Assembly: GCF_000416985.1 (NCBI RefSeq)
Contig: NZ_ATDL01000017.1
Span: 62,001-126,000 of the forward strand
Length of the DNA: 64,000 nt
Origin: Sphingobacterium paucimobilis HER1398
Lineage (GTDB): Bacteria > Bacteroidota > Bacteroidia > Sphingobacteriales > Sphingobacteriaceae
Reading direction: 5' to 3'
Below, one piece after another: positions 8,067 to 20,160 of the stretch. The notes under the pieces were generated by a model. The model saw only the letters and a program-made list of their open reading frames with translations, was not told where the DNA came from and did not search any database. A program made the position numbers and the translations under genes. Numbering within the stretch: position 1 is the stretch's first letter; each line of letters begins with the position of its first letter.

Positions 8067-8555
8067 CTAGAACTCTGACTCTGATGGAGGCTTTAAATAC
8101 TTTTTGTAATTCCCCTCTTTGATATAGTCTAGGTCTCCTTCTTTGCAGTAGCCTGTCAGGTAGACCGAATACTTGTTACTATCCGCTTTATCTGCTCCGA
8201 GCTCTTTTATCACATCGGAGACACGTCTCGGGGTTTCAAAAAAATCGGAGTCGTATACAAGATGATCGAGCTTCTGATTCTTTTCAATACGTTTTTGAGA
8301 TTCAGGAGAAAGGCCAAAGAGCGGAGCTAATTCGATGTCATTCTCGAAGACATCACGAGGTTGGATTTGTAATGCCCGACAAATAAGCAAAAAGTTATTA
8401 AGCGTAGTGCCTCTGCCTTTTTCGAGAAAAAGAATAGTATTGATAGTCAACCCGGTCATATCCGCTACATCATTCTGCGAATAAGAAAGAGCTTCCCTCC
8501 TTTGACGGAAAACATCTCCTATTTTAATCAAAACATCTTTATTTGTTGCACTCAC
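8067..8555 (-). CDS. XRE-family transcriptional regulator
   Basis: 162 residues with a GTG start (MSATNKDVL). The helix-turn-helix spans about 10-65: IGDVFRQRREALSYSQNDVADMTGLT, then LFLEKGRGTTLNNFLLICRAL. The C-terminal 100 residues are not a family I recognise (VSDVIKELGADK, then a Tyr/Lys-rich end). It reads away from the RNA/array region and a palindrome lies just upstream of its start, so self-regulation is plausible. It borders the dCas12f-sigma island and could belong to it, or be an orphan toxin-antitoxin regulator. Confidence 0.75.
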   Translation of the reverse strand: MSATNKDVLIKIGDVFRQRREALSYSQNDVADMTGLTINTILFLEKGRGTTLNNFLLICRALQIQPRDVFENDIELAPLFGLSPESQKRIEKNQKLDHLVYDSDFFETPRRVSDVIKELGADKADSNKYSVYLTGYCKEGDLDYIKEGNYKKYLKPPSESEF

Positions 8556-8965: not shown

Positions 8966-9060
8966 CTGTAGATGCTCACAGTTTGTACATCTTGACGTCA
9001 TCTCGACCGTAGCGGAGAGATCTAACAATATATTATCACAGTTTGTAGGGTAGTAACAAC
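8966..9060 (+). repeat. Array repeat R1, split
   Basis: Left half 8966-8987 (CTGTAGATGCTCACAGTTTG), insert carrying a half palindromic element, right half about 9035-9060 ending GTAGTAACAAC. The string CACAGTTTGTA occurs on both sides of the insert. Confidence 0.6.
8995..9026 (+). repeat. Palindromic GTCATCTCGA element, left half only (P1)
   Basis: GTCATCTCGA followed by AGCGGAGAGATCTAAC. It lacks the matching right arm. Sits inside array repeat R1. Confidence 0.65.
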
Positions 9061-9090
9061 CACATTAAAGATAGAGTCCTGTATATGGCC

Positions 9091-9295
9091 CCCTGTAGAT
9101 GCTCATAGTTTGTCTGCTAGCCGTCACCCTGCTGCGTCCCGATATTGCATCGGGAAGCATAACGAAGTGAGGTCGAATGGGTCTAACGACATAATAGTCA
9201 CTCCTTGACAGTTCATAGATCTCTCTATTCCGCTTCGCTCCAATCGAGATGACGAAAGGAACAAAGCAAATGCTATTTGTAAGGGTATACACAAC
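9091..9295 (+). repeat. Array repeat R2, split
   Basis: Left half 9092-9113 (CCTGTAGATGCTCATAGTTT, then GT), about 160 bp of palindromic element, right half 9274-9295 (TATTTGTAAGGGTATACACA, then AC). Confidence 0.6.
9121..9253. repeat. Palindromic GTCATCTCGA element (P2)
   Basis: Diverged left arm, an internal perfect hairpin TCCCGAT-ATTGC-ATCGGGA (9137-9155), and a right arm AGATCTCTC...TCGAGATGAC. Lies just past the 3' end of the GIY-YIG gene and inside array repeat R2. Confidence 0.6.
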
Positions 9296-9343
9296 CGAGT
9301 CTCGTTCCCAAAAACTAAGCTTTTAACAAACAGACATCTTAAT

Positions 9344-9643
9344 TTACCACTCCTTAACAACCTGCCAGAGGTCGTTCCATTGTGGATTAAGCTTGTTGAT
9401 GAGATTTTCTTTCTTGGAGCGATTCCATTTCTTGAGTTGTTTTTCTCTGTCAATGGCTTCTTCAATCGTAGGAAAGGATTCATAATAAACACAGAGACAG
9501 GAATTATACTTACTCGTAAACGAATTGGCATACCGCTTCTCACGGTGCTCAACCAACCTAGTGTATAAATCAGAAGTCACTCCAATATAGAGCACAGTTC
9601 GGTTTACATTAGTTAGCATGTATATCACACCACCTCTTTCCAT
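9344..9643 (-). CDS. GIY-YIG nuclease family protein
   Basis: 99 residues forming a complete single GIY-YIG domain of the small UPF0213/YhbQ type. GVIYMLTN supplies the GIY strand, LYIGVTSDL the YIG strand, LVEHRE the conserved Arg/His helix, and EEAIDREKQLKKWNRSKKE the acidic catalytic helix with the basic tail; it ends LINKLNPQWNDLW. Such proteins are metal-dependent DNA endonucleases, but these small ones lack a target-recognition domain and their substrates are unclear. The gene lies between array repeats R2 and R3, with palindromic repeats on both sides, and may have entered the array with them. Convergent-facing relative to the array. Confidence 0.9.
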   Translation of the reverse strand: MERGGVIYMLTNVNRTVLYIGVTSDLYTRLVEHREKRYANSFTSKYNSCLCVYYESFPTIEEAIDREKQLKKWNRSKKENLINKLNPQWNDLWQVVKEW

Positions 9644-9675
9644 AGTATTAAGATACTAAATTAAACAACATACAC

Positions 9676-9730
9676 GAGGCTGCTTGTTCAGCCGTAGAGT
9701 GAGGGTGTATTGCCACTCACTAAGTACCCT
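9676..9730 (+). ncRNA. Cas12f tracrRNA-like scaffold, copy 2
   Basis: Second copy of the 55-nt element, about 85-90% identical by eye to 8900-8954. Stem 1 (GGCTG-CTTGTT-CAGCC) and the GTGAG/CTCAC stem are kept; the outer AGGGT arm has become AGAGT while ACCCT stays, so that pairing is weakened. No promoter of the first copy's kind precedes it; the GIY-YIG start codon is 33 bases to the left. Array repeat R3 follows 23 bases later, as in copy 1. Probably a duplicated array head, perhaps not transcribed on its own. Confidence 0.6.
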
Positions 9731-9753
9731 ATATTGAAAACACACAGGGGCAC

Positions 9754-9916
9754 CCTGTAGGTAATCAAAATTTATTCCCATCACGTCATCTCGATTGAAG
9801 CGCAACGGAATAGAGAGATCTAACGCTAGAAGTATCCTGTAAAACTAATAGATCTCTCCACAAGGTCGAGATGACGAAAGGAACAAAGCAAATATTATTT
9901 GTAGGGTAGTAACAAC
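9754..9916 (+). repeat. Array repeat R3, split
   Basis: Left half 9754-9776 (CCTGTAGGTAATCAAAATTT, then ATT), complete palindromic element, right half about 9895-9916 ending GTAGGGTAGTAACAAC. Confidence 0.55.
9785..9875. repeat. Palindromic GTCATCTCGA element (P3), complete
   Basis: Perfect terminal inverted arms GTCATCTCGA (9785-9794) and TCGAGATGAC (9866-9875), and a second nested pair GAGAGATCT (9813-9821) and AGATCTCTC (9850-9858). Best preserved member of the family in the window. Confidence 0.8.
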
Positions 9917-9943
9917 CCGATTAAAGCTAAATTATTCCCCCGA

Positions 9944-9979
9944 CCTGTAGTTGATCACAGTGTGTAGGGTATTAAAAAC
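9944..9979 (+). repeat. Array repeat R4, intact
   Basis: 36 nt, uninterrupted: CCTGTAGTTGATCACAG then TGTGTAGGGTATTAAAAAC. Flanked by spacers 9917-9943 and about 9980-10007. Confidence 0.7.
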
Positions 9980-10007
9980 GGCTTCTACTGTAACCCTTTT
10001 GCTTTAA

Positions 10008-10197
10008 TCATCTTAATGACAATTTATTTGTCTTGTCCCCGTCATCTCGATTGTAGCGCAGCGGAATAGAGAGATCTAACGAGATAACATTTAATACCAG
10101 ACAGTCCATAGATATTCCGATACTCGGAACAGGCACTCGACTGCGCTCGGTATGACGAAATGAATAAGCAAATACAATTTGATAGGGTAGTAACAAC
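10008..10197 (+). repeat. Array repeat R5, split and worn
   Basis: The left half about 10008-10031 is recognisable by TTAATGACAATTTATTTG, which matches the R3 left half TAATCAAAATTTATT. The right half 10175-10197 reads CAATTTGATAGGGTAGTAAC followed by AAC. Confidence 0.5.
10041..10156. repeat. Palindromic GTCATCTCGA element (P4)
   Basis: Left arm GTCATCTCGA (10041-10050) and GAGAGATCT (10069-10077) intact; the right arm has drifted (CACTCGACTGCGCTCGGTAT, then GAC). Internal hairpin TTCCGA-TACT-CGGAA (10115-10129). Confidence 0.6.
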
Positions 10198-10227
10198 TCT
10201 TTGTTTTACAATCAGTCAATCTGAACA

Positions 10228-10263
10228 CCTGTAGATGCTCACAGTTTGTAGGGTATTAACAAA
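10228..10263 (+). repeat. Array repeat R6, intact
   Basis: Consensus-like 36 nt: CCTGTAGATGCTCACAG then TTTGTAGGGTATTAACAAA. Flanked by 30-nt and 29-nt spacers. Confidence 0.75.
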
Positions 10264-10292
10264 GTATAGGTAAATATATCTAAGACTCGTCG

Positions 10293-10328
10293 CCTGTAAA
10301 TGACCAAAATGTGTAGGGCAATTATTAA
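10293..10328 (+). repeat. Array repeat R7, terminal and degenerate
   Basis: CCTGTAAATGACCAAAATG then TGTAGGGCAATTATTAA, exactly 65 bases after R6. The drift in its right half suits a terminal repeat. Confidence 0.6.
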
Positions 10329-10581: not shown

Positions 10582-11382
10582 ATGAAGCTATGCAACACAC
10601 AGCTCCACCTCTCCTTGCTCAAGGAGGGGAAGGAAAAAGGTTTGGATTATTTTTACCAAAAGTACTTCGATACATTCTGCTATCGGGCCGAACGTGCCAC
10701 CGAAGACTTATGTGCAGCAGAGAGTATTGTACAGGAGGCTTTCTTTCGTCTGTGGCTCTTCCGAGAGCAGATCGAAGACAGTGAAGCCGTATTTAACTTT
10801 CTAAAAAAACAGATCCGAGCGGCGATTGGTATATACTTCACCAAAACTAGGAATAGATTTCAACGTAGCCTATTACGTTTAGATAGTATTGAAGACTATC
10901 AAGAATTCATGTTGGGTTACGATATGGAAACTGAGGATGAAATAGATACTGTTTATTTAGAACGACTGGAGGAGGAGAAACAAAGTCAGCTTGAAAAACT
11001 CAATAAGTTGCTCCCCTTCCTTTCCGAACAGCAACAGAACTTTATCAAATTATGTTTACAATACAGCTTTAATTATGAACGAATTGCCTACTACCTAGGT
11101 GGAATATCGGATTATGAAGTCAGTTTGCAAGTAGAAAAAACAATTGATGCCCTACGTCAGATATTTCAAAGTCAGGACAAACTCAATATCCTCAACACCC
11201 CTAGCTCAATAAAGTTAGAAGGCGAATTTTCGGCAGAACAGGCCGAGATATTACGTATGCGCTATGAACTTCAGATGTCATTCGATGAGATCTCAGAATC
11301 ACTCCAACTAAGTTCATCCCTTGTCAAAAAAATATTTATAGAAGCACGAGCTAAAGTTAAATCCACTAAAAAGACAGCATAA
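10582..11382 (+). CDS. ECF-type sigma factor paired with dCas12f
   Basis: 266 residues, clearly longer than the usual 170-200 of an ECF sigma. Region 2 spans about 20-87: LDYFYQKYFDTFCYRAERAT, then ESIVQEAFFRLWLFREQI (the RNA polymerase clamp-binding and -10 helices). Region 4 appears twice: LPFLSEQQQNFIKLCLQYS...YERIAYYLG at about 137-196, and FSAEQAEILRMRYELQMSF, then EISESLQLSSSLVKKIF at about 214-262. The first copy is degenerate as a helix-turn-helix. The stop is 3 bases from the dCas12f start, so the two are translationally coupled. Inferred role: RNA polymerase recruitment to sites bound by the guide complex instead of a fixed -35 motif. No anti-sigma gene lies beside it. Confidence 0.85.
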   Translation: MKLCNTQLHLSLLKEGKEKGLDYFYQKYFDTFCYRAERATEDLCAAESIVQEAFFRLWLFREQIEDSEAVFNFLKKQIRAAIGIYFTKTRNRFQRSLLRLDSIEDYQEFMLGYDMETEDEIDTVYLERLEEEKQSQLEKLNKLLPFLSEQQQNFIKLCLQYSFNYERIAYYLGGISDYEVSLQVEKTIDALRQIFQSQDKLNILNTPSSIKLEGEFSAEQAEILRMRYELQMSFDEISESLQLSSSLVKKIFIEARAKVKSTKKTA

Positions 11383-11385
11383 ATC

Positions 11386-12480
11386 ATGGAAAAAGACACT
11401 ATTGTACTCACCAGAAAAATACAGTTACATATTGATTCGGACGACAAGGAAAAACGATCCGAATATTACAAGACGCTATTCGAGTGGCAGGATGTCGTAT
11501 TCCGCGGAGCTAATATGGTGATGTCTCACCAGTACATACAAGAGCAGATGAAAGACCTGATCTACTTACAGGATGACGTAAAAATCAAACTAGCCGACCG
11601 CAACAAGGATGAAGAAGGCATACTAAATACATCACGAATGAATACGACCTATAAAATATTGTCCCGTTATTTTAAGGGCAAGATCCACTCCGATATCCTG
11701 TCCTGTATCAACATGACGCTGATAAAAACCTTCAATACCGAAAGGCTAGACTATTGGAAAGGTACCAAGTCCCTACGTAACTACAAAAAGGATATGCCCA
11801 TTCCATTTTCCGGTAGCCAGATCAAACTCCATAAGGATGAAAATAACAGAGATTTTAAGTTTACTCTGTTCAAAATCCCTTTCCGAACGTACCTTGGCAA
11901 AGACCGATCGGACAAACGGGTATTATTACAGCGCGCACTCGTAGGGCAGATCAAGATCTGCGGAAGCTCTATCAAGATCGTAAAAGGTAAGATTTTCTTA
12001 CTAATCGCACTGGAAATGCCTAAAAAGCAACAGGAACTAAAAGATCATATTATTGCCGAGGCCTCATTAGCTGTTGAGCATCCCATCACGGTACAGATTG
12101 AAAAAGAGAATTTTCAAATCGGGAATAAAGAAGAGTTTCTCTACCGTCGTATCGCAATACAATCGGCCAGACATCGTATCCAACGGGCGGCAGCGTTCTC
12201 CAGAGGCGGCCACGGACGTAAGAAGAAACTAAAAAGTCTAGATCAATACAACGAAAAGGAGAAAAAATACGTGGACAACAAACTTCACCTCTACAGCCGC
12301 AGATTGATAGACATCTGTATCAAGGCGCAAGCAGGCACTCTCCTGCTCGTCAACCAAAGTCTAAAAGAAGAAGTCGCCAAAGAAGACGAATTCCTCCTCC
12401 GAAATTGGTCTTACTATGGGCTTATCGAAAAAATAAAATACAAAGCCGATATGGCAGGAATACAAGTTATTACGGAATAA
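11386..12480 (+). CDS. Nuclease-dead, C-terminally truncated Cas12f-like protein
   Basis: 364 residues. Family marks: SLRNYKKDMPIPFSGSQIKL (123-147, the Cas12f wedge motif), FTLFKIPF, then RGGHGRKKKLK (273-283), IDICIKAQAGT (308-317) and WSYYGLIEKIKYKADMAGIQV (given as a pattern, 341-361). These align in order with Un1Cas12f1 RAGHGAKNKLK, IADFFIKNKVGT, FWPYAEMQNKIEFKLKQYGI. Catalysis is lost: the RuvC-I Asp of GGIDVGV falls at Ser227 (AEASLAV), the RuvC-II Glu of VQMENL at Val322 (LLLVNQSL), and the protein stops before the zinc ribbon and the RuvC-III Asp. It should bind guide RNA and DNA without cutting. Partner: the sigma gene 3 bases upstream. A TnpB-derived TldR-type repressor is the alternative, but the tracr-like RNA favours Cas12f. 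Confidence 0.85.
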   Translation: MEKDTIVLTRKIQLHIDSDDKEKRSEYYKTLFEWQDVVFRGANMVMSHQYIQEQMKDLIYLQDDVKIKLADRNKDEEGILNTSRMNTTYKILSRYFKGKIHSDILSCINMTLIKTFNTERLDYWKGTKSLRNYKKDMPIPFSGSQIKLHKDENNRDFKFTLFKIPFRTYLGKDRSDKRVLLQRALVGQIKICGSSIKIVKGKIFLLIALEMPKKQQELKDHIIAEASLAVEHPITVQIEKENFQIGNKEEFLYRRIAIQSARHRIQRAAAFSRGGHGRKKKLKSLDQYNEKEKKYVDNKLHLYSRRLIDICIKAQAGTLLLVNQSLKEEVAKEDEFLLRNWSYYGLIEKIKYKADMAGIQVITE

Positions 12481-19587: not shown

Positions 19588-20160
19588 ATGAAACTATACA
19601 ATGCAGACCTTCCTTCCATTGAAGACGATGCTGTCTTACTGACACGGTATCTTCGGACAGATGATATGGAAGCCTTAGGCACACTGTATAGCAAGCATAC
19701 AGAAATGGTATACTACGTATGCTTGCGCTACTTTAAAGAAGAGGAAAAAAGCAAAGATGCCGTAATGCAAATCTTTGAAGAGCTTATAACCAAAATTAAA
19801 AAGCAGGATATCAAGAGCTTTCCAAAGTGGCTATACGTTGTGAGCAAGAATTTTTGCTTGATGGATCTACGGTCAAAAAAAGGCAGAATAGAAGTTTCAA
19901 TGGATGAATTTGTGGAATTCCCAACAAATATGCATCAGGAAGAAAGTTATTCGGAGAAAGAAGGAAGGTTATCGTTATTGGAACAGTGCATAGACAAGCT
20001 TCCTGAGAAACAAAAGGTAACCGTAGATCTCTTTTTCATAAATGAACATTGTTACAAAGAAATAGTCGAAATAACAGGATATAGTATGAACGAAGTAAAA
20101 AGCTATATCCAAAACGGAAAGAGAAACTTAAAAAATTGTATGGATAGAGCCGATGCGTAA
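19588..20160 (+). CDS. ECF-type RNA polymerase sigma factor
   Basis: 190 residues, the normal ECF length, in contrast to the one at 10582. Region 2: MEALGTLYSKHTEMVYYVCL, then EEEKSKDAVMQIFEELITK and FPKWLYVVSKNFCLMDLR. Region 4: LPEKQKVTVDLFFINEHCYK, then EIVEITGYSMNEVKSYIQNG. It overlaps the next gene by 8 bases, which encodes a membrane protein with an anti-sigma-like start, so the two are co-translated and likely form a regulatory pair. Confidence 0.92.
   Translation: MKLYNADLPSIEDDAVLLTRYLRTDDMEALGTLYSKHTEMVYYVCLRYFKEEEKSKDAVMQIFEELITKIKKQDIKSFPKWLYVVSKNFCLMDLRSKKGRIEVSMDEFVEFPTNMHQEESYSEKEGRLSLLEQCIDKLPEKQKVTVDLFFINEHCYKEIVEITGYSMNEVKSYIQNGKRNLKNCMDRADA

Follow-up and report, generated by a model that had tools for sequence, protein, structure and literature searches.

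The window, by which we mean the whole analysed stretch of 64,000 nucleotides from Sphingobacterium paucimobilis HER1398, carries a sigma factor gene followed almost directly by a Cas12f gene. The features are listed below with their residues in the sigma factor; the two region-4 segments are called sigma4a and sigma4b.

10582..11382, + strand: sigmaE gene, partner of dCas12f; 266 aa, ATG start; full-length homologue of 9n9q_C
10594..10851, + strand: sigma region 2, residues 5-90; ECF profile, model pLDDT, and 99.8% in profile-profile comparison with ECF region 2
10852..10947, + strand: linker from region 2 to sigma4a, residues 91-122; unusually conserved (F93-x-R95 ... L100-D101 ... Y106-Q107)
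10948..11172, + strand: sigma4a, the in-line region 4, residues 123-197; four predicted helices; ECF profile, profile-profile comparison and fold
11107..11160, + strand: DNA-reading helix position in sigma4a, residues 176-193; net charge -2
11173..11220, + strand: variable connector, residues 198-213; mean information 1.10 bits
11221..11367, + strand: sigma4b, the added region 4, residues 214-262; three predicted helices; Pfam Sigma70_r4, ECF profile and VIA
11311..11364, + strand: DNA-reading helix position in sigma4b, residues 244-261; net charge +4
11386..12480, + strand: dCas12f gene, 364 aa; begins 3 bases past the sigma stop codon

The sigma factor is a homologue of 9n9q_C ('RpoE', 261 aa; phmmer E 3.9e-37, residues 11-261 on 7-252), a chain of the entry titled 'Cryo-EM structure of the RNA-guided transcription complex', for which Foldseek gives a release date of 2025-12-24. 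A Foldseek search with the full sigma model returned this chain as the sole match below E 0.001 (E 7.2e-11, 30% identity). The neighbouring protein matches the 'Nuclease-deactivated Cas12f' of 9n9c, 9n9m, 9n9o and 9n9q (E 1.8e-122) and appears to be of the nuclease-dead kind, as judged by its homology as a whole, not residue by residue. With full-length homology to the sigma chain of a solved RNA-guided complex, and with its gene adjoining that of such a Cas12f homologue, the 266-aa protein is almost certainly the sigma subunit of a dCas12f-sigmaE RNA-guided transcription system. Because both proteins match those of 9n9q, the window's sigma is a Sphingobacterium-type representative of an already known kind. 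A pseudogene or chance open reading frame at 10582-11382 is ruled out; the reading frame is kept in homologues. Preprints of 2025 reportedly describe dCas12f-sigmaE systems in Bacteroidota, where a guide RNA takes over promoter choice and the -35 contact is largely supplanted.

A sequence-only reading of this DNA had proposed one region 2 followed by two consecutive region-4-like segments, at 137-196 and 214-262. The proposal holds, with borders close to those we place at about 123-197 and about 214-262. Pfam reports a single region 4 in the protein (Sigma70_r4 at residues 217-260, E 1.7e-7) and places region 2 at residues 25-74, under the curated cut-off. NCBIfam TIGR02937 (sigma70-ECF) scores above its cut-off and matches in two stretches; since the best of these spans residues 21-193, the sigma4a segment occupies the place of region 4. 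For comparison, a profile was built from 25 ordinary ECF sigmas of 178-214 aa, 24 from elsewhere in the same genome plus the one encoded at 19588 in the window. The set began as 27 sequences, from which one duplicate and one sequence of 239 aa were removed; a further locus fetched for it (L020) gave no match. The sigma at 19588 provides the useful contrast foreseen for it, as an ordinary ECF of 190 aa with one region 2 and one region 4 in Pfam. At 266 residues, the dCas12f-linked sigma is indeed longer than all 25.

The ECF profile follows the window's sigma over residues 5-203 as a whole chain (ECF positions 8-188 of 195, 69.3 bits) and then matches region 4 anew at residues 215-262 (ECF 132-179, 16.7 bits). 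This double match recurs at other dCas12f loci, in 107 of 108 distinct intact dCas12f-linked sigmas, the one in L097 showing a single match, and in none of the 25 ordinary ECFs or the two dropped from the set. The second match has a domain E below 0.01 in 98 of the 108 and is at or above 0.01 or absent in 10, and the match from region 2 through sigma4a is unbroken in 104. The 108 rows exclude fragments of five genes that are interrupted (G080, G095, G938, G777 and G990), as well as the G847 and G917 copies that lie away from dCas12f. Profile-profile comparison pairs sigma4a and sigma4b with ECF region 4 at 98.7% and 98.2%, respectively, and with each other at 93.0%; either segment reaches at most 1.2% with ECF region 2. 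We are all but sure of the resulting plan, sigma2 - conserved linker - sigma4a - sigma4b with two consecutive region-4-like domains, and system assignment and plan taken jointly are very probably right. Since neither segment resembles its partner as closely as it resembles ordinary region 4, the doubling may have arisen by an old duplication or by a fusion.

Structure prediction agrees with this division. The full-length model is too poor for domain arrangement (mean pLDDT 64.1, pTM 0.38), with pLDDT below 50 at the linker (88-122) and connector (204-213), and it is good in region 2 (pLDDT mostly 77-91, residues 11-80). Helices are predicted at 123-146, 149-160, 165-172 and 177-196 in sigma4a, and at 218-228, 234-241 and 245-258 in sigma4b, which is without the first helix of region 4. 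Folded alone, sigma4a forms four helices with a mean pLDDT of 87.4. The predictions do not show one ECF fold plus a disordered insert, the outcome that would have told against the sequence-only reading. The first 26 rows of a Foldseek search with this model are all sigma-factor entries, headed by 9n9q_C, with none at E below 0.001. VIA aligns the lone sigma4a with 9n9q_C residues 116-197 (Z 9.7, 4.2 A over 82 residues) and sigma4b, taken from the full model (208-263), with region 4 of sigF (Z 8.5, 2.2 A, 56 residues). Helical folds commonly give Z values under 8 to 13, so we base the region-4 call on the profiles and take VIA as support. Both copies are probably ordered in the 9n9q complex, since the Foldseek chain length equals the sequence length (261) and all residues of 9n9q_C thus appear to be modelled.

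The two copies differ in their reading helices. Mean net charge is +3.44 in ordinary ECFs (25 rows), -0.37 in sigma4a and +1.65 in sigma4b (108 rows each), with -2 and +4 for the two copies in the window's sigma; the ranks and p-values of this comparison take related sequences as independent. Basic residues are frequent in ordinary ECFs and nearly gone from sigma4a at ECF positions 145 (70% and 0%), 166 (64% and 1%) and 174 (76% and 1%, with 61% acidic in sigma4a). Position 177 keeps its basic residue (92% in ordinary ECFs, 99% in sigma4a), and position 171 is more basic in sigma4a (79% vs 32%). Elsewhere the domain shows strong conservation: L157 is invariant, and A169, I168 and S176 are nearly so. 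We take this pattern to mean that the fold has been retained for contact with proteins and no longer serves to read DNA. The sequence-only reading had called this segment degenerate as a helix-turn-helix, which is right for the positive charge of the reading helix and wrong for the predicted fold, which is intact. As far as its residues tell, sigma4b is an added copy that retains part of the positive charge of the reading helix.

The linker is also distinctive. Its mean information across the 108 dCas12f-linked rows is 2.11 bits, against 2.20 in region 2, and in the 25 ordinary ECF paralogues it is 1.06 against 1.97 bits; since this pits orthologues against paralogues, the ratio is to be used and not the level. 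Linkers of ECF sigmas are expected to be shorter than 50 residues and are described as showing no sequence conservation (PMC8103513). The linkers of the 108 sigmas agree with this in length, at 22-34 residues, and depart from it in being as conserved as region 2.

The double-region-4 architecture follows dCas12f. In all 18 loci retrieved with the sigma protein, the dCas12f gene lies directly downstream. When dCas12f was the starting point, 99 distinct loci were obtained: 90 encode a sigma that extends to the end of sigma4b (including L107, where the sigma is interrupted near residue 45), 4 have a split sigma and 5 have no adjoining sigma. Loci identical over the initial 300 bases of dCas12f entered this count a single time, and the count covers 30 fetched loci of the second-family scan, leaving out dCas12f fragments and many further places there. 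The two scans share 68 Sphingobacterium-genus genomes; of these, 36 have the sigma, all 36 with dCas12f, and 5 of the 32 without it have dCas12f, two of them as fragments only (36/68 and 5/32 were tallied by hand from the scan tables). More widely, dCas12f is present in 8 of 395 genomes drawn from the phylum, 72 of 301 from the window's family and 55 of 246 from another family. The phylum draw holds 9 further genomes with sigma matches at E<=1e-10 and no dCas12f, and all nine matches are single ECF chains. Homologues of the same length away from dCas12f, which the sequence-only reading had taken as telling against it, were seen in just two genomes, G847 and G917, and each of these has dCas12f at another place.

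At the five loci with no sigma beside dCas12f (L099, L101, L103, L106 and L108), the dCas12f frames are open. These loci are nested in clades that bear the sigma; 3 changes are required on the dCas12f tree, and the starred branches by themselves demand 2 or more. A full double-region-4 sigma lies elsewhere in two of the five genomes, G847 and G917, and none in G983, G992 and G827; the dCas12f of these three may have another job. The displaced genes (L152, 5956-6798; L153, 5998-6804) sit amid ABC-type permease and ABC ATPase genes.

Several sigma genes are interrupted. In G095 (L125, with the same place in L040), a short A run marks a break between the two region-4 domains, where the gene falls into overlapping reading frames of 201 and 82 codons. 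Since all 30 other loci examined from its family are unsplit, the copy is probably broken; a programmed frameshift is a lesser possibility. The sigma4a core is missing from G080 and the frame is disrupted, and the genes of G938, G777 and G990 are likewise interrupted.

Upstream of the pair in the window, an XRE/HTH_3 gene (8067-8555, - strand) points away from it. XRE homologues lie upstream in 13 of the 18 loci L001-L018, in 3 of 41 sigma-bearing loci of L081-L126 (where flanks are shorter), and in all 5 sigma-less dCas12f loci, and the gene may be a third component in Sphingobacterium. In the stretch between the XRE and sigma genes (8966-10315), a 22-base unit (CTGTAGATGCTCACAGTTTGTA) occurs seven times in degenerate form beside other repeats, and is possibly related to the guide RNA. 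A 99-residue open reading frame with a GIY-YIG domain (9344-9643, - strand) lies inside this repeat stretch.

So, what might two region 4 domains do in one sigma factor? The guide RNA and dCas12f would choose the DNA site, and the sigma factor, by homology to the solved complex, would bring RNA polymerase to the dCas12f-bound site. The anatomy of the protein suggests that sigma4a, which has four helices and occupies the usual ECF position, would stay on the polymerase flap and cease to read the -35 element. Its former DNA-reading face, the positive charge gone, would then face the dCas12f complex occupying that place. On the same anatomical grounds, sigma4b, which is without the first helix of region 4, could act as an extra clamp on dCas12f, guide RNA or upstream DNA. 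We lean towards sigma4a on the flap and sigma4b as the addition because sigma4a stands in the usual place after the linker with four helices and sigma4b lacks the first. This division of labour is put forward tentatively, as plausible and somewhat short of an even chance.

The two copies may instead have the opposite roles, as the sequence-only reading had it in its first version: sigma4a would leave the polymerase to become the docking domain for dCas12f, and sigma4b would take over the flap and DNA contacts. The charges fit such an exchange, being lost from the reading helix of sigma4a and partly kept in that of sigma4b, and sigma4b is the copy that Pfam recognises. However, the unbroken profile match from region 2 through sigma4a in 104 of 108 relatives leaves sigma4a in its usual place, and the three-helix sigma4b of the model is without the first helix of region 4. 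Covariation with dCas12f was sought over 108 pairs (effective number 54.3), with a null that permutes partners within clusters, and there is no excess for either copy: among the top 200 pairs, sigma4a has 43 against a null of 51.3 (sd 3.9), slightly below it, and sigma4b 27 against 28.4 (sd 3.2), at the null. We treat the covariation as uninformative; nonetheless, the exchange of roles does not gain the sigma4a excess that would favour it, and we consider it unlikely. What stands of the earlier interpretation is a dCas12f-tied sigma whose first region 4 is unlikely to read DNA in the ordinary way; as to which copy docks dCas12f, the covariation shows no preference.

Alternatively, sigma4b could have a regulatory role as a C-terminal extension, keeping the sigma inactive before dCas12f binding in the manner of the ECF41 and ECF42 extensions. 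Regulatory C-terminal extensions are common in ECF groups, but those described in the part of the source available are SnoaL, TPR, cysteine-rich, WD40 or anti-sigma-like (PMC8999054), and the extension here is a region 4. The equivalent chain end also appears ordered in the active 9n9q complex, and a purely regulatory extension is improbable; a regulatory role and an architectural contact of sigma4b can coexist. It is scarcely conceivable that the protein is an ordinary ECF with one region 4 and a disordered insert, matched a second time by chance, as the single Pfam region 4 and the low pLDDT of linker and connector might suggest, given that 107 of 108 relatives and none of 25 ordinary ECFs have the double match, that sigma4a folds alone, and that both segments reach about 98% with ECF region 4; we reject it on these grounds.

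Returning to the reading with sigma4a on the flap, a wider proposition can be built on it. The doubled region 4 would be a hallmark of RNA-guided sigmas: sigma4a kept on the polymerase with its face recast toward dCas12f, sigma4b added as a clamp, the linker made conserved, and promoter reading transferred to a guide RNA in a single evolutionary step, which later spread along with dCas12f. This is possible, and rather doubtful as a whole.

The locus illustrates how a sigma factor that reads promoters can be refitted so that a guide RNA directs it. A sequence signature sets such sigmas apart from ordinary ECFs: region 4 is doubled, the first reading helix is neutral or acidic, and the linker is conserved. 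With dCas12f in 72 of 301 genomes from the window's family, there is enough material for comparison, and the genes that are split, lost or displaced offer natural experiments on which sigma part is needed.

The ECF definition names sigma2 and sigma4 as the two domains, in the part of the source available (PMC8103513). The window's sigma has both in ECF order (ECF profile; TIGR02937 above its cut-off) and goes beyond the two domains with the extra region 4 at 214-262. Like ordinary group IV ECFs, such as that at 19588, its sigma2 and in-line sigma4 align end to end with the ECF profile; unlike them, it carries an additional region 4, its linker is conserved, and the reading helix of its sigma4a has no net positive charge. 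ECF groups in which the core is followed by an extra C-terminal domain include, as excerpted, ECF41 (SnoaL), ECF42 (TPR), ECF238 (cysteine-rich) and ECF57 (WD40) (PMC8999054). The window's sigma resembles these in plan and differs in that its extra domain is a region 4 and its gene sits with dCas12f; none of the four extension types is among its 9 Pfam matches up to E 1, where the extension matches Sigma70_r4.

The two-region-4 arrangement is not new in itself, because a 261-aa homologue has already been solved in a full complex. A literature search for phrases on a second or duplicated sigma4, judged by titles and the starts of abstracts and with the primary dCas12f-sigmaE papers outside its range, returned nothing on the topic. 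The closest known system is that of 9n9q, with dCas12f by itself in 9n9c, 9n9m and 9n9o. Its sigma and the window's are distant relatives (30% identity in the Foldseek alignment). The likenesses nevertheless run through the whole pair: the sigmas are of near-equal length (261 vs 266 aa) with homology across both region-4 segments, the sigma lies directly upstream of dCas12f in both systems, and the dCas12f proteins are homologous over their whole length.
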